A stretch of DNA of 64,000 bases. It comes from Pelolinea sp. GTDB lineage: Bacteria; Chloroflexota; Anaerolineae; Anaerolineales; Anaerolineaceae. This document shows, piece after piece, positions 1,034 through 9,486 of this stretch (positions are counted from its first letter, which is position 1; each line of letters begins with the position of its first letter). The notes beneath the pieces were generated by a model. It had not been told where the DNA came from and searched no databases. It saw only the letters and a list, made by a program, of their open reading frames with translations. The stretch lies in NCBI GenBank assembly GCA_030692365.1, contig JAUYCC010000053.1, forward strand, positions 62,001 through 126,000, in the 5' to 3' direction. Position numbers and translations under genes: made by a program.

Positions 1034-1429
1034 ATGAGAAAACTATCTTTAATAGTAGTATCCAGCTTGGTCATTTTGAATGTTGTTTTGAGTGGGTGTT
1101 CTGCTGTAAGTAAATTAAATCCTTCCGATGTCACATATGCTTATTTGAAAGCATTGGCTGAAAAAGACAAAACAAAAGTGATCAACCTCTCTTGCAAAGC
1201 GTGGGAAGAACAAGCATCACTTGAGGTGGATGCGCTCTTATCGGTTGGCGCAGGTTTGAATAACGTCCAATGTAAAGTTACAGGCAGCGAAGGGGATTTT
1301 CAACTGGTTAATTGCTCAGGAAAGCTGGACTTAACTTATAACGATGAGGTCCGCTCAATAGATTTAAGTCCGCGAATATATTCGATGTCTTTGGAAGACG
1401 GTCAATGGAGAGTTTGCTCCTATAAATGA
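1034..1429 (+). CDS. Small Cys-rich lipoprotein, first gene of the acylation operon
   Basis: A 131-residue protein with a type II signal peptide: basic start (MRK), hydrophobic run, and lipobox L-S-G-C with the lipidated Cys at residue 22. The mature part begins near LNPSDVTYAYLKALAEKD, which resembles NTF2-like/DUF4878-type lipoproteins, and has further cysteines that could form disulfides. GGAG lies about 6 bases before the ATG. Its stop overlaps the ATG of the next small gene (ATGA arrangement), tying it to the operon. Function is not known; an extracytoplasmic accessory role in the acylation system is inference from position. Confidence 0.75.
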   Translation: MRKLSLIVVSSLVILNVVLSGCSAVSKLNPSDVTYAYLKALAEKDKTKVINLSCKAWEEQASLEVDALLSVGAGLNNVQCKVTGSEGDFQLVNCSGKLDLTYNDEVRSIDLSPRIYSMSLEDGQWRVCSYK

Positions 1430-1548
1430 TGGCCGGCAAAATCATTACCAAAGAAAACCTTTTAGCACTGGCCATTTGTCTGGTGATTATTGGTTTAATC
1501 ATCCTTACATCGGACAATGCTCCTCTTTGGATCTATCAAGGATTTTAA
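1426..1548 (+). CDS. 40-residue single-pass microprotein with C-terminal WIYQGF (DltX/DUF5989-like)
   Basis: This short ORF overlaps the upstream stop codon (ATGATG at 1426-1431) and ends 3 bases before the MBOAT start. It has a short basic N-terminus (MMAGKIITKEN), one hydrophobic helix (about residues 12-27) and a C-terminus ending A-P-L-W-I-Y-Q-G-F with Tyr37. From memory, DltX microproteins and the DUF5989 family have the same build: one membrane helix and a terminal aromatic-Ile-Tyr-x-x-Phe motif, encoded beside MBOAT and SGNH genes. In the Dlt system the motif Tyr is proposed to carry the acyl group between MBOAT and SGNH partners. The ORF and motif are seen directly; the DltX-like role is inference. 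The second ATG (1429) could be the start. Confidence 0.75.
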   Translation: MMAGKIITKENLLALAICLVIIGLIILTSDNAPLWIYQGF

Positions 1549-1551
1549 TTT

Positions 1552-2970
1552 ATGCTCTTAAACCAAATTTTTGCTGCTATTTGCATTTTGGTTTTTTTTA
1601 GAATCTTTTTTTGGCCAGTATCAAAAAACTGGCTATTATTTGTTCTAAGCCTGATAGCAATTTTTTGGTTTCAAACTTCATCACCAATTCGCACCCTGAT
1701 TTTTTGGCTGCCCACGATAATACTGGTTTTATCGACAGTTATATGGATGTTACTAGACCTCCGGGAAAAATCTATTATTACTGAGGATATTATTGCTTTA
1801 ATTATTATTTTGATTTTTCCTTTTTTGTTTGGTCTTTTGAAATTTATTGGTTTATCCGAAATCTCGTTCATAACAAATACGCCGCGATTTCTTTATTTGC
1901 TGCTTATACCGGGCATACTATTTCTTTGCTTGTATTTAATTGGCAAGAGAACCATCAATCAATCTCTTTTATCGGGTTTATTAATCAGTGGATTGGTTAT
2001 ATTTCTCATTATCCTTAAAAGTAAAGCACTATCCCAGTATATGAGTGCAATCCTCCGACAATTAAACGGTCAATCCATTGCCTTGGCGTCATCTGTTGAC
2101 ATAGTATGGGTGGGTTTTTCATATTTCGCTTTCAGGTTGATCCATATTCTCGTTGATAGAGAAAGAATAAAGAAATTAGATTTATCACTTCGAGATTTTG
2201 TAACCTATCTTATTTTTTTCCCTGCCTTTACAGCTGGACCTATTGATCGAATTGAACGCTTCAGTGGGGAACTCACTAAAGTTGATAAAAAATCTCTCAA
2301 TGAGGATTTTATTGAAGGCGGTTTGCGGATTATCCGGGGTCTTTTTCAAAAATTCATCCTCGCGGATAGCCTTGCCCTGATTTCACTGAATACGCATACA
2401 GCGAATTCAGTTAATATGGCAGGGTGGATGTGGCTGGTCTTATATGCATACGCATTCAGAATTTTCTTTGACTTTTCGGGTTATACAGATATCGCCATTG
2501 GAATTGCCAGGTTAGCAGGTATTACTTTACCTGAGAACTTTAAAAGACCTTATCTGTCGAAAAATATTTCGATATTTTGGAACAATTGGCATATCACAAT
2601 GACCCAATGGTTTAGAACTTATTATTTCAACCCAATTACAAGGTTTATCAGGTCAAATTACAAAAATATTTCACCAGTTCTAATTATCTTTTTCACCCAG
2701 ACCACAACTATGGTTCTCATTGGTTTATGGCATGGAATAAACTGGAATTTTGTGATTTGGGGTTTATGGAATGGAATTGGATTATTTATCCACAACAGGT
2801 GGTCTGAAAAGATCAAACCAAGACTCTCTTTTTTTCAAGATAAGAGATTATTAGTTCCTTATGACATTGTTAGTGTAATATTCACTTTCAACTTTGTCGC
2901 ACTTGGTTGGGTTTGGTTTTCCTTACCAAGTATTAATGAATCATTATTAGTATTTTCAAAATTATTTTAA
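1552..2970 (+). CDS. MBOAT family membrane-bound O-acyltransferase (DltB/AlgI-like)
   Basis: A 472-residue polytopic membrane protein. The MBOAT signature is clear: YTDIAIGIARLAG, then FWNNWHITMTQWFRTYYF, then the invariant histidine in LIGLWHGINWNF at residue 394. Family members such as DltB, AlgI and PatA take an acyl thioester from the cytoplasmic face and pass the acyl group to an outward acceptor. The start lies 3 bases after the microprotein stop, with AGGA upstream, and the next gene follows after 5 bases. With the downstream carrier protein and ligase it fits an ACP-dependent acyl transferase. The acceptor polymer is unknown. Confidence 0.93.
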   Translation: MLLNQIFAAICILVFFRIFFWPVSKNWLLFVLSLIAIFWFQTSSPIRTLIFWLPTIILVLSTVIWMLLDLREKSIITEDIIALIIILIFPFLFGLLKFIGLSEISFITNTPRFLYLLLIPGILFLCLYLIGKRTINQSLLSGLLISGLVIFLIILKSKALSQYMSAILRQLNGQSIALASSVDIVWVGFSYFAFRLIHILVDRERIKKLDLSLRDFVTYLIFFPAFTAGPIDRIERFSGELTKVDKKSLNEDFIEGGLRIIRGLFQKFILADSLALISLNTHTANSVNMAGWMWLVLYAYAFRIFFDFSGYTDIAIGIARLAGITLPENFKRPYLSKNISIFWNNWHITMTQWFRTYYFNPITRFIRSNYKNISPVLIIFFTQTTTMVLIGLWHGINWNFVIWGLWNGIGLFIHNRWSEKIKPRLSFFQDKRLLVPYDIVSVIFTFNFVALGWVWFSLPSINESLLVFSKLF

Positions 2971-2975
2971 AAAAA

Positions 2976-4100
2976 ATGAATAACAGTAAGAAAAAAGATA
3001 TTTTGATCATAAGATTAATCATTAAATCAATTTCGTTATTTATCCTTTTAAATTTTCTGTTTATTCTTGTGAAAGATATTCCTTATGGCAGTATTTCGTT
3101 GTATAACTCGGTATTTCCAGGCAGGGAAAGACTCCCTTTCGGGGAAACACCTTCAGAGTCTTTTAATTTAACGATATTCAATTTGGACGCAATGCTCAGT
3201 TCGCATAAAATTTCAGCTGATAAGAAAACAGAGTATGACTATCGAATAATTATTATTGGTGATTCATCTATTTGGGGATTTTTACAGAAACCTGAGAACA
3301 CTTTGGTGGGATTGCTTGATAAAAATATTGATTTTCAGTGCGATAGTAAAAATATTGAAGTATTTAATCTCGGGTATCCTAGCCTATCAGTCCTCAAAGA
3401 TTTGGTTATCTTGGATAAAGTGAAGTCTTACCATCCTGACCTTGTAATTTGGTTTATAACTTTGGAGTCATTAGTTTCAGAAGAACAACTCAATACTCCT
3501 TTGATAAAAAACAACTCTTTGATTTTAAACAAAGTCATCAATAATTATCAACTAACATATCCAAAGGCGAATATTGATTTATTAGATTACACCATTATTG
3601 GACAAAAAAGAAATCTTGCTGATAATATTCGCCTTCAACTTTATGGCGCTTTATGGGCTGGTTCAGGAATAGACCAGGCATTTCCTGAGGAATACACACC
3701 CGCACAGCGAGATTTTGAATCAGATTATTCGTACAAGAATTTTGAGGATAATCAAATTCAAAAGGATGATCTTGCAATAAGTGTGATTTTAAAGACTGTT
3801 TCAGGTTTTCCGGAATTAGATTTCATCCTGATTAACGAACCGATTTTGATCAGTTCAGGGAAAAATAGCGATATTCGCTATAACTTTTATTACCCGCGTT
3901 GGGCTTATGATGATTACCGCAATATTGTAAAATCTGTTTTTGAGCAATCAGCAATAAAATATTATGATTTTTGGGATCTTGTCCCTGAATCAGAATTTAC
4001 GAATAGCGCCATCCACTTGAGTACTATTGGTGAGGAAATTCTTGCCGCTAAGACCGAAGCTCAAATCAAGAATCATTGCGAATCACTAGGAAAAGAATGA
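2976..4100 (+). CDS. Membrane-anchored SGNH/GDSL hydrolase-like protein (DltD/AlgX-type partner)
   Basis: A 374-residue protein with one N-terminal transmembrane helix (about 10-32) and an extracytoplasmic SGNH-like domain. Block I is IIIIGDSSIWGF with candidate nucleophile Ser97; the C-terminal block has SAIHLSTIGEEIL with a candidate His347. The usual Asp three residues before that His is not seen (Ser there), so the triad may use another acid. SGNH partners of MBOATs perform the final acyl transfer outside the cell. Its stop overlaps the next gene's ATG (4097), consistent with translational coupling. Confidence 0.85.
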   Translation: MNNSKKKDILIIRLIIKSISLFILLNFLFILVKDIPYGSISLYNSVFPGRERLPFGETPSESFNLTIFNLDAMLSSHKISADKKTEYDYRIIIIGDSSIWGFLQKPENTLVGLLDKNIDFQCDSKNIEVFNLGYPSLSVLKDLVILDKVKSYHPDLVIWFITLESLVSEEQLNTPLIKNNSLILNKVINNYQLTYPKANIDLLDYTIIGQKRNLADNIRLQLYGALWAGSGIDQAFPEEYTPAQRDFESDYSYKNFEDNQIQKDDLAISVILKTVSGFPELDFILINEPILISSGKNSDIRYNFYYPRWAYDDYRNIVKSVFEQSAIKYYDFWDLVPESEFTNSAIHLSTIGEEILAAKTEAQIKNHCESLGKE

Positions 4101-5038
4101 GAATACGCCATAATACAAAAAGTTCCTTATTTCATTACACAATAATTCTTGTTTTTCTGGTGACCGCGTGTACATCAAAAGCAATGCCAGAAATTCAAGA
4201 AGAAATTATCGTACGGCCTTCTCCAACCAATTTATCACCCACACCTACTTTCAATGTGCCAACCTTAACGGCGACCCCGGAAATAATCAATACGCCAACA
4301 CCTGACACCCGTATTCCTCCGGACCAATGGCAAAGTTGGCCAATTATTCCAATTGCGACAAACCGGTCAATTGAAATATATAAGAAAGGTCAAACTAATG
4401 GAGTAAATCCGAAAGCATTTTCAAAAATAGGGGATTGTCAAAATGTAAAAGAGTCATTTATGGGGATCTACGATACTGGAATTTTCTTTCTACAGGATTG
4501 GCAAAAGGATTGGCAGCAAACTGCCGATCAATTTAAGGGATATTACAATCGTGATAGCCTGGCTTTTGGCCAGGGTTTAAATGTGGCCGCTGCTTTATCG
4601 CTATTACACGCAGACCCCGCTGGTTGTCAACCTAATGAAAATCCCATTCAATGTGAATTGCGCGTCATCAATCCTGCATACGCATTTATAAGGTTTGAAC
4701 GTTGGTATTCGGATGTAACTCCGCCTGAAACATATGAAAAATACCTTCGACAGATACTGAACCTGGTGATTGACCATGGTACTGTCCCTATTCTGATGAC
4801 CAAGGCAGATAATGTCGAAGGCGGCCATCAAATCAACACTATTATCGCTAAATTAGCTTATGAGTATGATGTTCCCTTGTACAATTGGTGGCGGGCTGCC
4901 CAGGCTTTGCCTAATCGCGGTCTTGACCCTGAAAGGGATGACAAATTCCATATCGATCCTAAATATGCCTGGACAGAGCAAAGCGCATATGGTCTAGGCA
5001 CACTTGATTCAATATGGAAAGGAACTAGAGGGTTTTAA
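4097..5038 (+). CDS. SGNH-like lipoprotein with Cys in place of the block I Ser
   Basis: The start is placed at 4097 (ATGA overlap with the upstream stop, AGGAAAAG just before it) rather than the in-frame ATG at 4076. A signal peptide ends in lipobox L-V-T-A-C, followed by a Pro/Thr-rich linker (TPTF, TATPEI, TPTPDTRIPP) typical of cell-wall-spanning lipoproteins. The folded part resembles Chloroflexota SGNH lipoproteins: SKIGDCQNVKESF (block I, Cys where Ser is expected), VPILMTKADNVEG, VPLYNWWRAAQALPNRGL and a terminal DKFHID. It may be a Cys-type or inactive, ligand-binding SGNH domain. It is the second SGNH-like protein in this operon. Confidence 0.8.
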   Translation: MRIRHNTKSSLFHYTIILVFLVTACTSKAMPEIQEEIIVRPSPTNLSPTPTFNVPTLTATPEIINTPTPDTRIPPDQWQSWPIIPIATNRSIEIYKKGQTNGVNPKAFSKIGDCQNVKESFMGIYDTGIFFLQDWQKDWQQTADQFKGYYNRDSLAFGQGLNVAAALSLLHADPAGCQPNENPIQCELRVINPAYAFIRFERWYSDVTPPETYEKYLRQILNLVIDHGTVPILMTKADNVEGGHQINTIIAKLAYEYDVPLYNWWRAAQALPNRGLDPERDDKFHIDPKYAWTEQSAYGLGTLDSIWKGTRGF

Positions 5039-5044
5039 TCTTAC

Positions 5045-5296
5045 ATGGAAAAAGCAGAAATTATAAAATTGATCGGTTCCAAGATAGCTTCCGAGATACT
5101 TAAGCAACCTGAGAAGGTCATTACTCCGGATGAACCATTGATTTCAAGTGGGTTAATTGACTCATTTAGCCTGGTAGACCTGGCGCTTCAAGTTGAGGAA
5201 TTGTTTGGGGTGCGCATTGAAGATTTCGAATTGAATGTTGATACATTTGATAATCTAAACCAGTTGGCTGAGATTGTTCTAAGTCGGAAAAAATAA
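5045..5296 (+). CDS. Acyl carrier protein
   Basis: An 83-residue carrier protein with the phosphopantetheine attachment motif GLIDSFSL (Ser40) and the following helix LVDLALQVEELFGV. It sits 6 bases after the lipoprotein and 2 bases before the fatty-acyl-AMP ligase, so it is probably the ligase's partner: the ligase would adenylate an acid and load it on the carrier's arm. In a Dlt-type machine this occupies the DltC role. It is separate from fatty acid synthesis genes, which argues against the housekeeping AcpP. Confidence 0.92.
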   Translation: MEKAEIIKLIGSKIASEILKQPEKVITPDEPLISSGLIDSFSLVDLALQVEELFGVRIEDFELNVDTFDNLNQLAEIVLSRKK

Positions 5297-5298
5297 TA

Positions 5299-6978
5299 AT
5301 GCCTACTTTTTCAACGACTCTTCTTGACCATTTAAATAAAACTCCAGACAAAGTCATCCTTCATCTACAGAAAGCCGGAAAAGAAGATGTCCATCTAAGT
5401 TATAAAGACCTGATAGAAGAGTCAAGCCGCTATGCTTCTGCTTTATCCCAATCCGGCATTGAACCTGGCGAAGTTGTCGTAATCATTCTTCAACATGGAC
5501 TGGATCTAATTCTTTCATATTTTGGGACGATTCTTAATGGTTCGATCCCGTCCATCATGCCGTTCTTGACAGAAAAACTTCTCCCGGAGAAATATAGAGA
5601 AGATTTAAATTCTTTAATTGAGATCACAAAGCCATCCGGAATCATTGCGTTTGATGAATTTATGCCGGAAATTGCTCATCTGGAAAATAATTCATCAGTA
5701 AAGCAAATCCTGATTACCGAGAATATTTCGCAAGTAACAACTCTGAAAACCAATTTTTCCTTCTCGGGGTTAAAGCGAAATCAGGATGATATTGTGCTTT
5801 TACAGCATTCTTCCGGTACGACTGGTTTGCAAAAAGGGGTTGCGCTCACCCATCAGGCAGTCTTTAACCAAATTGAAAGCTATAGCCAGGCCATAAAACT
5901 TACAAAAGACGACATTATTGTCAGTTGGTTACCCTTGTATCATGATATGGGGTTGATTACATCCTTTTTGATGCCTGCTTTATGCGGAATTCCCTTAGTT
6001 TTGATGTCTCCCTTTGAATGGGTTCGTGCTCCTCACCGGATTTTTCGTGCAATATCGGATTATCGGGGGACTTTGTGCTGGCTTCCCAACTTTGCCTATA
6101 ATTTCTGCACAAAAAAGATCCGGGAAGATGATTTAAAAAATGTGAATTTATCATCTTTAAGAGCAGTAATTAATTGTTCTGAACCGATGCGCTATGACAG
6201 CCATAAAATGTTTGAAGAGCGATTTTCCCAATATGGTTTAAAAGAATCTGCCTTAGCCACTTGTTACGCGTTGGCTGAAAATGTTTTTGCAGTTACGCAA
6301 GATGGTATTGAAAAACCTGTTACCTATGATGTAATTGATCTCGAAATATTTCAGAAAGATAAAATCGCGCAGAAACCAGCAGATGGCAGTCACCCTGTAA
6401 AAATGGTATCTGCGGGCAAACCCGTTTCTGATTGCCGGGTTCGTATCATTGATGATAAAGGCAGCAATTTACCCGATCGTCATCTTGGGGAAATTTTCAT
6501 TCAAAGCAATTGCATGCTTAAGGAATACTACTTGCGAAAAGAGGAGACCCAAAAATCATTTATTGACGGATGGTTTAAAACCGGAGATCTAGGATATCTG
6601 GCAGATGGTGAACTCTATATCAGCGGCCGCAAAAAGGACCTAATCATTGTTGGTGGCAAGAATTTATATCCACAGGATATTGAATCCATAGTCACGGAAA
6701 TTGAAGGCGTTCATCCTGGCAGGGCAGTAGCCTTTGGTATCTTTAACGATGAAAAAGGTACAGAAGATGTTGTCGTCATTGCTGAAATTGAAAAAGGGAA
6801 TATGTCAAGTGAAGCCCAAATTGGTGATGAAATCCGCCGCAGGGTTACTCAAAGCACAGCCGTTGCGTTGAGGCATGTCCTCTTAGTCGATGAAAAATGG
6901 CTTATTAAAACCAGCAGCGGTAAAATAGCCCGGTCAGCCAATAAAGAGAAGTACTTGCAGGAATTTCACCAAAAATAA
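5299..6978 (+). CDS. Fatty-acyl-AMP ligase / acyl-ACP synthetase (FAAL-like, DltA role)
   Basis: A 559-residue ANL-superfamily adenylating enzyme. Visible motifs are the phosphate loop HSSGTTGLQKG (about 170-180), the FAAL-typical SWLPLYHDMGLI, the hinge region WFKTGDLGYL, GRKKDLIIVGGKNLYPQDIE, and the C-terminal catalytic lysine in KTSSGKIA (Lys542). FAALs activate fatty acids as acyl-AMP and load them onto carrier proteins rather than CoA. The adjacent carrier protein supports this. The chain length cannot be read from sequence. It is not a canonical D-alanine ligase, so the transferred group is probably an acyl chain. Confidence 0.9.
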   Translation: MPTFSTTLLDHLNKTPDKVILHLQKAGKEDVHLSYKDLIEESSRYASALSQSGIEPGEVVVIILQHGLDLILSYFGTILNGSIPSIMPFLTEKLLPEKYREDLNSLIEITKPSGIIAFDEFMPEIAHLENNSSVKQILITENISQVTTLKTNFSFSGLKRNQDDIVLLQHSSGTTGLQKGVALTHQAVFNQIESYSQAIKLTKDDIIVSWLPLYHDMGLITSFLMPALCGIPLVLMSPFEWVRAPHRIFRAISDYRGTLCWLPNFAYNFCTKKIREDDLKNVNLSSLRAVINCSEPMRYDSHKMFEERFSQYGLKESALATCYALAENVFAVTQDGIEKPVTYDVIDLEIFQKDKIAQKPADGSHPVKMVSAGKPVSDCRVRIIDDKGSNLPDRHLGEIFIQSNCMLKEYYLRKEETQKSFIDGWFKTGDLGYLADGELYISGRKKDLIIVGGKNLYPQDIESIVTEIEGVHPGRAVAFGIFNDEKGTEDVVVIAEIEKGNMSSEAQIGDEIRRRVTQSTAVALRHVLLVDEKWLIKTSSGKIARSANKEKYLQEFHQK

Positions 6979-6981
6979 CCC

Positions 6982-8250
6982 ATGCTTAATGACCTAAAAA
7001 AATATATTACTTATCTTTCCGACAATGAAGAGGGGAAGGGTACAAAGAATAAGATAATTTTTATCTTACTAATTCTCTCGGTCTTGCTGTTAATAAATAA
7101 ATTCTTTCTGATCAAATTTACAGATAGCGAGAATTTTCAAATTCATTCTGCTTTATCGAATTTGCTATTTTTCAAGGGGATAAGCCCTTATTCAAAAGAT
7201 ATTGCATCTGTCCTTGCAAATTATTTTTCGACGCGAGGAGTGAGTTTTCAAACAAATAGCTTTATTTTTCAACTGCCAATATATCAATTGATTTTTTATC
7301 TACCTTTTTCATTAATCTCCGAAAATAATTGGTCATTAGCAATTTGGCTTACAGTAAATCAATTCCTATTTCTGCTTTGTATTGAGAATTGCTTTAAAAT
7401 ACTGAAGTGGGTCCCGAAATATTTGTTAAAAATTGTTCTTATGGGGATTGGCACGATCACTTTTTTTGGGATTTCAAATTTCATAGCCGCGAATACTTCC
7501 ATTATCCAGCTTCTTTTTCTTATCCTTGGTCTTAAGTATTTATTTTCCGAAAAGTATGTGTTTTCTGGCTTAATAATTGGGTTAGCAACGATAGATCCTT
7601 TTAATTTATTCATACCCCTTGGTATTGTTTTGGGGTTTTTAATTAGTAGAAAACAATTTGAACCATTAATATGGTTAATTATTTCAATTGTCTTACTTTC
7701 GTTGACCGGATTATTTTTTGATTCCGGATGGGTCCTAAAAATGCTCAAAAATATCTTCCTGGAAGGTTCTTTCTATCCGTTTATTGACTATAACCATGCG
7801 TTATTGAATTGGATTTCGATATTATCTTCTGGAAAAATAATAAGCTTTGCCCCATTTCTCTTATTAATTTGGATTTTTATGGAATATTCGCGCTTGCCAA
7901 AGCAAAATTCAAACCAGTTCTTCTGGCTGCTGAGCCTGGTTAGTTGTATTAATCCCTTTGTTATTATGAGAGAGACGAATTATGCCTCGGTCTTATATCT
8001 TTTGCCTTTGGTTTTTATTGTGTATCTTTGGGAATGTCATTCTACCGGAACGATAAACAAAGTGATATATGGAATCTTGTTCTTGACAGCAGCAGCAATT
8101 CCGTTGGTAAGCTTACTTTTCCCGGGTGTTTTTGGTTTTCTGGCAAATTTCCATTCTATAAATCTTATTAACAGTATTGTGTTAATAATGGTACTGTACT
8201 GGATCAGGTGGTGGGTTGTTAAACCTTATGACTATCTGATGACTGAATAA
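6982..8250 (+). CDS. Polytopic membrane glycosyltransferase-like protein (GT87/DUF2029 type)
   Basis: A 422-residue protein made mostly of transmembrane helices. Near the N-terminus, after the first helix, NFQIHSALSNLLFFKGISPYSKD matches the 'G-x-xPY' loop region common in GT87/DUF2029 polyprenyl-phosphate-mannose-dependent transferases. It starts 3 bases after the ligase stop, so it is the last gene of the acylation operon. It may build or modify the glycan or lipid that receives the acyl group; that link is inference. The GT-C fold family is likely; donor and acceptor are unknown. No terminator is obvious before the pfp promoter. Confidence 0.65.
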   Translation: MLNDLKKYITYLSDNEEGKGTKNKIIFILLILSVLLLINKFFLIKFTDSENFQIHSALSNLLFFKGISPYSKDIASVLANYFSTRGVSFQTNSFIFQLPIYQLIFYLPFSLISENNWSLAIWLTVNQFLFLLCIENCFKILKWVPKYLLKIVLMGIGTITFFGISNFIAANTSIIQLLFLILGLKYLFSEKYVFSGLIIGLATIDPFNLFIPLGIVLGFLISRKQFEPLIWLIISIVLLSLTGLFFDSGWVLKMLKNIFLEGSFYPFIDYNHALLNWISILSSGKIISFAPFLLLIWIFMEYSRLPKQNSNQFFWLLSLVSCINPFVIMRETNYASVLYLLPLVFIVYLWECHSTGTINKVIYGILFLTAAAIPLVSLLFPGVFGFLANFHSINLINSIVLIMVLYWIRWWVVKPYDYLMTE

Positions 8251-8319: not shown

Positions 8320-9486
8320 ATGTCAAAAACAATTGGAATTTTAACCGGGGGAGGGGACGTTCCAGGTCTGAATCCCGCAATGAAAGCCGCGGTGTTGAAC
8401 GCACTTGAAGCAGGGTACAAGGTTCGCGGCATTAGGCGGGGCTGGCAAGGGCTCCTGCATTACGATTTTGACGAACCTTCAACGCATGATTACTACATAC
8501 GAGAGCTTGAATATGTGGACGTGCGAACGATTGACAGGACTGGTGGTACTTTCCTGCACACTTCCCGCACAAATCCCCAAAAAGTGAGGGTGAAAGATGC
8601 CCCGGACTTTTTGATTAATTCAAAATATGGAAAAAAACTGGATGAGAACACGATAGATTACACAGACTATGTCCTCAAGGTTCTGTCTGAATTGGAGATC
8701 GATGCCTTAATTGCCATTGGTGGAGATGATACTTTGTCTTTTGCAGCACGGCTGCATAAAGAAGGATTCCCAGTCGTTGGGATTCCTAAAACAATGGACA
8801 ATGACGTTTATGGCACTGATTACTGTATTGGATTTTCTACAGCCGTAACACGCAGCGTAAACCTCATTACAGACTTGCGAACCTCTGTCGGCTCGCATGA
8901 ACGTATTGGAATTATTGAACTATTCGGCAGAAACTCAGGCGAAACTAGCCTGATAACAGCATTACTTGCTCAGGTTGACCGCGCGGTGATCTCGGAAGTT
9001 CCTGTTGATATTAACAAATTGGCTGATTTTCTGATGGATGATAAACGCCGCAATCCGTCAAACTATTCCATCATGACCGTATCAGAAGGTGCTACGTATA
9101 AGGGCGGTGGAATTATTGAAACCGGCGAAGAAGACGCCTATGGCCATAAAAAACTGGGCGGAATTGGTCAGATGATCTCTGATGATATTAAAAAAATCAC
9201 TAAAACAAACACCATGTTCCAACAATTAACCTATGTTATCCGCTCTGGCCCCCCTGATTCTTTGGACAGAATGGTTGGCATGGCTTTTGGCACAACGGCT
9301 ATGAATCTCATCAAGAAAAACGATACTGGCAAGTTGGCAGCTTTACAGGGAGGAAAATATACTACTGTTCCACTTGATATAGTAATTTCTGGAAAGAAAC
9401 ATGCGGATATAGCATCGTATTACGACAAAGAGAATTACCAGCCAAAAGTAAGGGAATTTTTGGGTCACCCCATGTTCCTGACATAA
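8320..9486 (+). CDS. pfp: 6-phosphofructokinase, pyrophosphate-type signature
   Basis: A 388-residue group A phosphofructokinase, preceded by a strong GGAGGT. N-terminal GILTGGGDVPGLN is the phosphoryl-donor loop. The donor-specificity positions read GGDDT (second Asp at 137) and PKTMDND (Lys157), the combination associated with PPi-dependent enzymes; ATP enzymes have GGDGS and PGTIDND. Catalytic Asp160 is present. It catalyses fructose-6-phosphate phosphorylation, reversible if PPi is used. It is monocistronic, between its own promoter and a terminator. The PPi assignment is from motif knowledge, not assay. Confidence 0.9.
   Translation: MSKTIGILTGGGDVPGLNPAMKAAVLNALEAGYKVRGIRRGWQGLLHYDFDEPSTHDYYIRELEYVDVRTIDRTGGTFLHTSRTNPQKVRVKDAPDFLINSKYGKKLDENTIDYTDYVLKVLSELEIDALIAIGGDDTLSFAARLHKEGFPVVGIPKTMDNDVYGTDYCIGFSTAVTRSVNLITDLRTSVGSHERIGIIELFGRNSGETSLITALLAQVDRAVISEVPVDINKLADFLMDDKRRNPSNYSIMTVSEGATYKGGGIIETGEEDAYGHKKLGGIGQMISDDIKKITKTNTMFQQLTYVIRSGPPDSLDRMVGMAFGTTAMNLIKKNDTGKLAALQGGKYTTVPLDIVISGKKHADIASYYDKENYQPKVREFLGHPMFLT

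Follow-up and report, generated by a model that had tools for sequence, protein, structure and literature searches.

A putative Dlt-like envelope acylation operon with a tyrosine-tailed microprotein and a fatty-acid-type ligase in Anaerolineae

An operon that probably encodes an envelope acylation machine related to the Dlt system of Bacillota lies near the start of a 64,000-nucleotide stretch of DNA (the window) from Pelolinea sp., a member of the Anaerolineae (assembly GCA_030692365.1, contig JAUYCC010000053.1, positions 62,001 to 126,000). The genome comprises 2.48 Mb in 102 contigs. Eight genes, all on the + strand, span positions 1034-8250 of the window and lie no more than 6 bases apart or overlap by 4: in order, a 4-base overlap, gaps of 3 and 5 bases, a 4-base overlap, and gaps of 6, 2 and 3 bases. 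An earlier note, made from the sequence alone, had described here eight same-strand, tightly joined genes for a membrane-bound O-acyltransferase (MBOAT), an SGNH protein, an acyl carrier protein (ACP), an ANL ligase and a 40-residue membrane protein. This description is borne out by the Pfam searches, structure matches and predicted models reported below.

The first gene of the block (1034-1429) encodes a small secreted lipoprotein of 131 residues with lipobox Cys22, which has no Pfam family. It overlaps the gene of a single-span microprotein of 40 residues (1426-1548), characterized by homologue alignment and charge bias and proposed to be an acyl shuttle, which ends in P-x-W-I-Y-Q-G-F and places Tyr37 in this tail. 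The W-I-Y-Q-G-F codons occupy positions 1528-1545, as found by sequence reading and pattern searches, with the stop codon (1546-1548) directly 3' of them. The next gene encodes a DltB-like MBOAT acyltransferase of 472 residues (1552-2970; PF03062, 4.7e-13). Two SGNH proteins follow, both assigned from predicted structures. SGNH1 (2976-4100), the proposed final transferase, has 374 residues, several of them invariant, and is membrane-anchored by an N-terminal helix. SGNH2 (4097-5038, with the start ATG at 4097) is a lipoprotein of 313 residues, in which Cys114 of a GDC motif stands at the position expected for the nucleophilic serine. The ACP (5045-5296; PF00550, PP-binding, 2.8e-8) has 83 residues and its attachment serine in G-L-I-D-S-F. 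The seventh gene encodes a ligase of 559 residues (5299-6978; AMP-binding, 2.6e-54), whose structure matches are fatty acyl-AMP ligases (FAALs), and the eighth a polytopic membrane protein of 422 residues without a family match (6982-8250).

Sixty-one genomes were searched for orthologues of the MBOAT, defined by an E-value below 1e-77, and the surrounding regions were then read. Orthologues are present in 35 of the 61. The lipoprotein, microprotein, MBOAT, SGNH1, SGNH2, ACP and FAAL genes form a conserved block of seven, found in some 33 loci with flanking genes that vary between genomes. The recurring order is lipoprotein, microprotein, MBOAT, SGNH1/SGNH2, ACP and FAAL. SGNH2 is positioned 5' or 3' of SGNH1 or is present in two copies, and at one locus (L055) the FAAL-ACP-SGNH2 segment is inverted. 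The conserved co-occurrence that the earlier note proposed to look for is therefore found, but its eight-gene operon shrinks to this block of seven. Gene 8, although co-directional, has a homologue beside the block in three other loci only (L033, L034 and L065), and was rejected as a part of the machine. The lipoprotein, to which the note had assigned no role, belongs to the core: its homologue lies directly 5' of the microprotein gene in 29 loci, and Cys22, Cys54, Cys80, Cys94 and Cys128 are invariant. Recurrence in about 33 loci with different flanks, together with tail residues of the microprotein that stay fixed while their codons vary, raises the block above chance.

The DNA pattern PxWIYQGF-stop was found in 33 of 400 Chloroflexota genomes, namely in 33 of the 55 genomes of the window's class and in none of the 345 other Chloroflexota, and a reversed control pattern had no match in the 400. 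A collection with one genome per species (84,980 species) contains at least 119 stretches with the motif. Among the matches listed (80 loci), all are from Chloroflexota by name except one from an uncultured bacterium, whose locus contains ACP, FAAL, MBOAT and SGNH1 genes; beyond the listed matches, the motif may still occur rarely in other groups. All 80 of these listed loci encode the same microprotein, including the 14 that have no MBOAT gene immediately downstream, and 79 have at least one other core gene in the fetched stretch. SGNH2 is located between the microprotein and the MBOAT in several of the listed loci (L120, L121 and L145). A plasmid of Leptolinea sp. HRD-7 (AP024711.1; L258:6984-8963) carries the lipoprotein, microprotein and MBOAT genes; repeated sequence comes next, and the genes listed there include none for SGNH, ACP or FAAL.

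Of 33 copies of the microprotein, that of the window included, 32 end in P-x-WIYQGF-stop, and the sole departure is WIYSGF in L064. All 26 aligned homologues share the residues P, W, I, Y, Q, G and F, while their tail codons differ. A chance open reading frame was rejected on account of this invariance and of the fixed residues with varying codons. Lysine and arginine average 2.6 in the 12 residues around the start of the membrane span and zero in the last 13 residues, a bias that, by the positive-inside rule, places the C terminus outside. According to a 2025 paper on MBOAT/SGNH systems, the acyl group is carried by the tyrosine of the C-terminal FxYxxF motif of DltX, and the motif undergoes auto-acetylation where it is fused to PatA (PMC12148441). 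WIYQGF-stop is a hexapeptide of this type, with W replacing F at position 1; annotated DltX proteins end in FIYNEF. Pfam DltX (PF12459) has no match in the 61 genomes, whereas the Bacillus subtilis and Lactococcus lactis controls match. The earlier note called the microprotein unannotated, which does not apply everywhere: in Leptolinea sp. HRD-7 it is annotated as a hypothetical protein (BCY19582.1).

The operon MBOAT has two invariant histidines, His347 and His394. The latter, in the sequence WHG, is kept in 33 of 33 copies and is the universally conserved histidine of the MBOAT family. The window's MBOAT matches DltB structures at 2e-61 and scores 206 bits with the DltB model TIGR04091, under the cut-off of 375. 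TIGR04091 is the sole NCBIfam match for all 30 operon MBOATs scanned, and likewise for the 27 scanned paralogues with a fused tyrosine motif. The location of the motif provides a test of the shuttle idea, for the motif should be either on the MBOAT or on a partner protein. Of 44 MBOAT paralogues from the same set of genomes, 43 carry the tyrosine hexapeptide as a fused C-terminal tail; among the 35 operon MBOATs none does (p 1e-21). The strict pattern finds 41 of these 43, and the other two (SIYGKY and TIYGNF) are looser matches; L257, the one paralogue that lacks the hexapeptide, is encoded by a short reading frame. The terminal hexapeptides of MBOATs from other phyla are FLYYQF (Deinococcota), FIYFQF (Pseudomonadota), FLYFDF (Bacteroidota) and FLYFQF (Acidobacteriota). 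DltB, like the operon MBOATs, lacks the tyrosine hexapeptide tail.

A careful MBOAT tree was calculated from 365 core columns, with the fused tail excluded, for 17 operon MBOATs, five DltB proteins and 23 fused-motif MBOATs from Chloroflexota and other phyla. The operon MBOATs group together with support of 100/99 and the DltB proteins with 100/100. In this unrooted tree the two groups are sisters (99/95) with respect to all 23 fused-motif MBOATs. A quick tree, built from more rows and a single DltB, had the same outcome. With no root and with long stems leading to DltB and to the operon MBOATs, the careful tree may owe the sister relation to long-branch attraction. Neither tree supports a local origin of the operon MBOAT from the fused-motif paralogues that share its genomes. 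The sister relation and the DltX-type hexapeptide lend support to the earlier proposal of a Dlt-like parallel machine in Chloroflexota.

Other arrangements of MBOAT genes occur in the same genomes. The window's own genome encodes a second MBOAT, with fused FLYADF, beside a 430-residue protein and an ACP-like gene (L068:9849-12859, G000 contig C51). A different recurrent operon in the same family (L247:309-5603, L251:2-5233, L242:772-6999 and L249:1776-6999, in genomes G013, G007, G009 and G029) contains a ligase that resembles DltA and stays below the TIGR01734 cut-off, a second enzyme (in L247 a GNAT), an ACP, an MBOAT with fused FIYMGF or FIYQGF, and a protein of 343-365 residues. It represents a carrier-dependent system with a fused shuttle. 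Two further loci (L243:887-4601 in G040 and L218:7514-16249 in G007) have a FAAL-type ligase and an ACP beside MBOATs with fused FVYQEF, FIYVQF and FVYVQF, so that the FAAL/ACP loading module pairs with the fused shuttle as well.

The best solved structures for the ligase profile are FAALs, 3kxw (2e-101) and 3pbk (3e-97), each matched in one unbroken stretch that runs through the insertion region. 4-Coumarate and other coenzyme A (CoA) ligases match in two pieces with a break between about 330 and 368, which we take to be the position of the FAAL insertion. A specific insertion in the N-terminal domain distinguishes the FAALs (PMC8460268). The curated NCBIfam FAAL models, which describe particular subfamilies, are not matched at their cut-offs, the best being NF006624 with 365 versus 600 bits, and the family assignment therefore leaves the length of the acyl chain undecided. 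No ligase in the 61 genomes exceeds the DltA cut-off (TIGR01734, 559.85 bits), which two controls do exceed. The ACP, whose D-S-F is conserved among homologues, scores 24.7 versus 68 and 21.5 versus 52.35 bits against the DltC cut-offs. Among the 61 genomes, FAAL and MBOAT orthologues are both present in 30 and both absent from 25, with MBOAT only in five and FAAL only in one (Fisher p 4e-11). One of the genomes where no FAAL was found, G001, has a contig that ends inside SGNH1. Genome G028 has FAAL and ACP genes together (L270:6848-8913) and no MBOAT orthologue. Among 120 neighbouring proteins, the 25 commonest Pfam families include no ketosynthase or other polyketide family, and neither these proteins nor the flanks of the operon loci include a recurrent neighbour that would name the acyl acceptor.

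SGNH1 and SGNH2 are below threshold in Pfam (0.013 and 0.0063), and both have an SGNH fold in their predicted models (predicted local distance difference test scores of 87.5 and 86, respectively). Ser97, Asn131 and His347 of SGNH1 are invariant. The SGNH1 model has its highest Z score, 16.2 over 171 residues, with TesA. The superpositions onto DltD (Z of 14.0 for 6o93, with a root mean square deviation of 4.7 over 276 residues, and 13.8 over 281 residues) are among the longest alignments listed, although their Z scores are not the highest. The SGNH2 model is TesA-like (Z about 15). GDC replaces GDS in 30 of 32 SGNH2 homologues and the histidine is not conserved; SGNH2 would be an enzyme that uses cysteine or else an SGNH protein without catalytic activity.

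The operon resembles the Dlt system (DltX-DltA-DltB-DltC-DltD) in having a separate one-span microprotein with a C-terminal tyrosine hexapeptide, an MBOAT without the motif, a carrier protein, an adenylating ligase and a membrane-anchored SGNH protein, all encoded in one operon, and the MBOATs are sister groups. Nevertheless, its ligase is of the FAAL type and not a DltA, its microprotein is not matched by Pfam DltX and starts the hexapeptide with W, it contains the extra lipoprotein and the GDC-type SGNH2, SGNH1 has no sequence link to DltD, and the host belongs to the Anaerolineae. PatA/PatB and related systems with a fused shuttle have in common with it an MBOAT, the tyrosine hexapeptide and an SGNH transferase (PMC12148441). 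The operon differs from them in carrying the motif on a separate microprotein and in having a carrier protein, and the fused-motif and operon MBOATs fall on opposite sides of the 99/95 branch. Of the FAALs, LpFAAL (3KXW), EcFAAL (3PBK) and FadD32 match the ligase over its full length in one stretch and are its closest relatives of solved structure. Their known settings, however, are the synthesis of polyketides, lipopeptides and mycobacterial lipids (PMC8460268, PMC11837247), whereas the partners of the operon ligase are an MBOAT, a microprotein and SGNH proteins. By the defining features tested, the operon is outside Dlt; it probably works in a Dlt-like way, and Dlt is its closest known relative. 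We classify it as a variant of the MBOAT/SGNH tyrosine-shuttle kind. No description of it was found in the open-access literature searched, a scope that excludes most subscription journals.

We consider it likely, with a probability of about three in four, that the operon encodes a split-shuttle envelope acylation machine, sister to Dlt, with a loading module of the fatty-acid type. Set beside the observed gene set, motif, complementarity of fused and separate motifs, sister relation, families and folds, homology suggests the following mechanism. The FAAL, judging by its family, would adenylate a carboxylic acid that has no amino group, most likely a fatty acid, and load it onto the phosphopantetheine of the ACP in the cytoplasm. 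The MBOAT would take the acyl group from acyl-ACP and, by analogy with DltB/DltX and PatA, move it across the membrane using His394. Tyr37 in the outward-facing C-terminal WIYQGF would, by the same analogy, be the acyl acceptor on the microprotein. Observed for this step are the invariant tail motif, the lack of such a motif on the operon MBOATs and the charge bias of the microprotein. The acyl-tyrosine peptide may then hand the group to Ser97 of SGNH1, which, given its fold and invariant serine and histidine, would esterify an extracytoplasmic acceptor. The lipoprotein and SGNH2 perhaps act outside the membrane, and one might guess at a role in acceptor binding, as a relay or as a chaperone.

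Four points weigh against this interpretation. The microprotein and DltX profiles align over their last 19 residues only, with a probability of 10%, so that common descent of the two is not shown; from this, and from the lack of a Pfam match, a true DltX was rejected. A sequence link between SGNH1 and DltD was sought by profile-profile comparison and none was found, and SGNH1 as a DltD was rejected on the sequence level. SGNH1 reads FTNSAIH where a DxxH is usual, and so lacks the Asp. Finally, genomes G011, G016, G019 and G049, all at least 95% complete, keep the module and have no FAAL-family match at 1e-40; G016 and G019 retain the ACP. Another loading route must exist in these four.

Because the ligase is of the fatty-acid type, the operon probably carries an acid other than D-alanine, as the earlier note had suggested. 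The structure matches and the absence, in the 61 genomes, of a DltA-grade ligase and of Pfam DltX favour this indirectly. A genuine Dlt system, with D-alanine as its cargo and a ligase that has been exchanged, would explain the sister relation to DltB and the pairing of microprotein and carrier protein. It might also claim TIGR04091, the only NCBIfam match of the operon MBOATs, but that match is shared with the fused paralogues. Since the controls do match DltA and DltX, the ligase is FAAL-type and the ACP is below the DltC cut-offs, we regard this explanation as very improbable. A different possibility is that the FAAL and ACP belong to an unrelated pathway for lipids or polyketides and are only neighbours of an MBOAT/SGNH pair whose donor is an acyl-CoA, for example acetyl-CoA. 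The two genes are indeed apart from the MBOAT in some genomes (G010, G012 and G023), and G028 has them without it. The FAAL nevertheless tracks the MBOAT closely, the ACP and FAAL genes adjoin one of the SGNH genes of the block in most loci where both are within reach, ketosynthases are not among the commonest neighbours, and Dlt, the sister group, is itself carrier-dependent (PMC12148441). This explanation, which the earlier note had named as one that would overturn its proposal, is therefore improbable, if somewhat less so than transfer of D-alanine.

A rival of greater weight retains the shuttle but changes the cargo. The FAAL-type ligase would activate a short or hydroxylated acid, and the product would be small and polar, an ester of the kind that Dlt or O-acetylation makes, and not a lipid. 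Characterized MBOAT/SGNH systems move small groups (PMC12148441), and the family does not fix the chain length of the operon ligase, which falls under every listed NCBIfam FAAL cut-off. Its closest solved structures are, however, fatty acyl-AMP ligases, and the FAAL family is described as channelling fatty acids (PMC8460268); we consider a short acid doubtful, yet a serious candidate. For the split-shuttle machine itself, a more specific version can be proposed tentatively, at somewhat less than even odds. It would be a second class of such machine, sister to Dlt, that transfers long fatty acyl chains via the tyrosine of the microprotein and lipidates an envelope polymer or protein outside the single-membrane Anaerolineae cell. 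The Chloroflexota are described as having a single membrane, and for one Caldilineae species teichoic acid genes and a lack of lipopolysaccharide genes were reported (PMC8793728).

According to the 2025 paper, MBOAT/SGNH pathways other than Dlt have neither a carrier protein nor a DltX-like microprotein (PMC12148441). The present operon has both, in another phylum, with a ligase of another family and with an MBOAT that is the sister of DltB. The separate shuttle is thus not peculiar to D-alanylation, and the operon and Dlt provide a ready comparison for the exchange of a loading module. The operon further points to an acyl decoration, as yet undescribed, in a class of single-membrane bacteria that is widespread and poorly understood. 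With the hexapeptide, the ligase and the carrier, the question can be addressed in vitro, with no need for culturing.

The block is set apart from the upstream gene by a terminator-like perfect 10-bp inverted repeat (AAAGCGGAGG-TCAC-CCTCCGCTTT) with a T run (966-992, + strand), which was found by direct reading and is absent from the list of the terminator scan. The genes on either side show local synteny and are outside the block. Upstream is a GNAT-like gene (34-960) and downstream a phosphofructokinase gene (8320-9486); a phosphofructokinase-like gene also lies 3' of the block in L033, L034 and L065.

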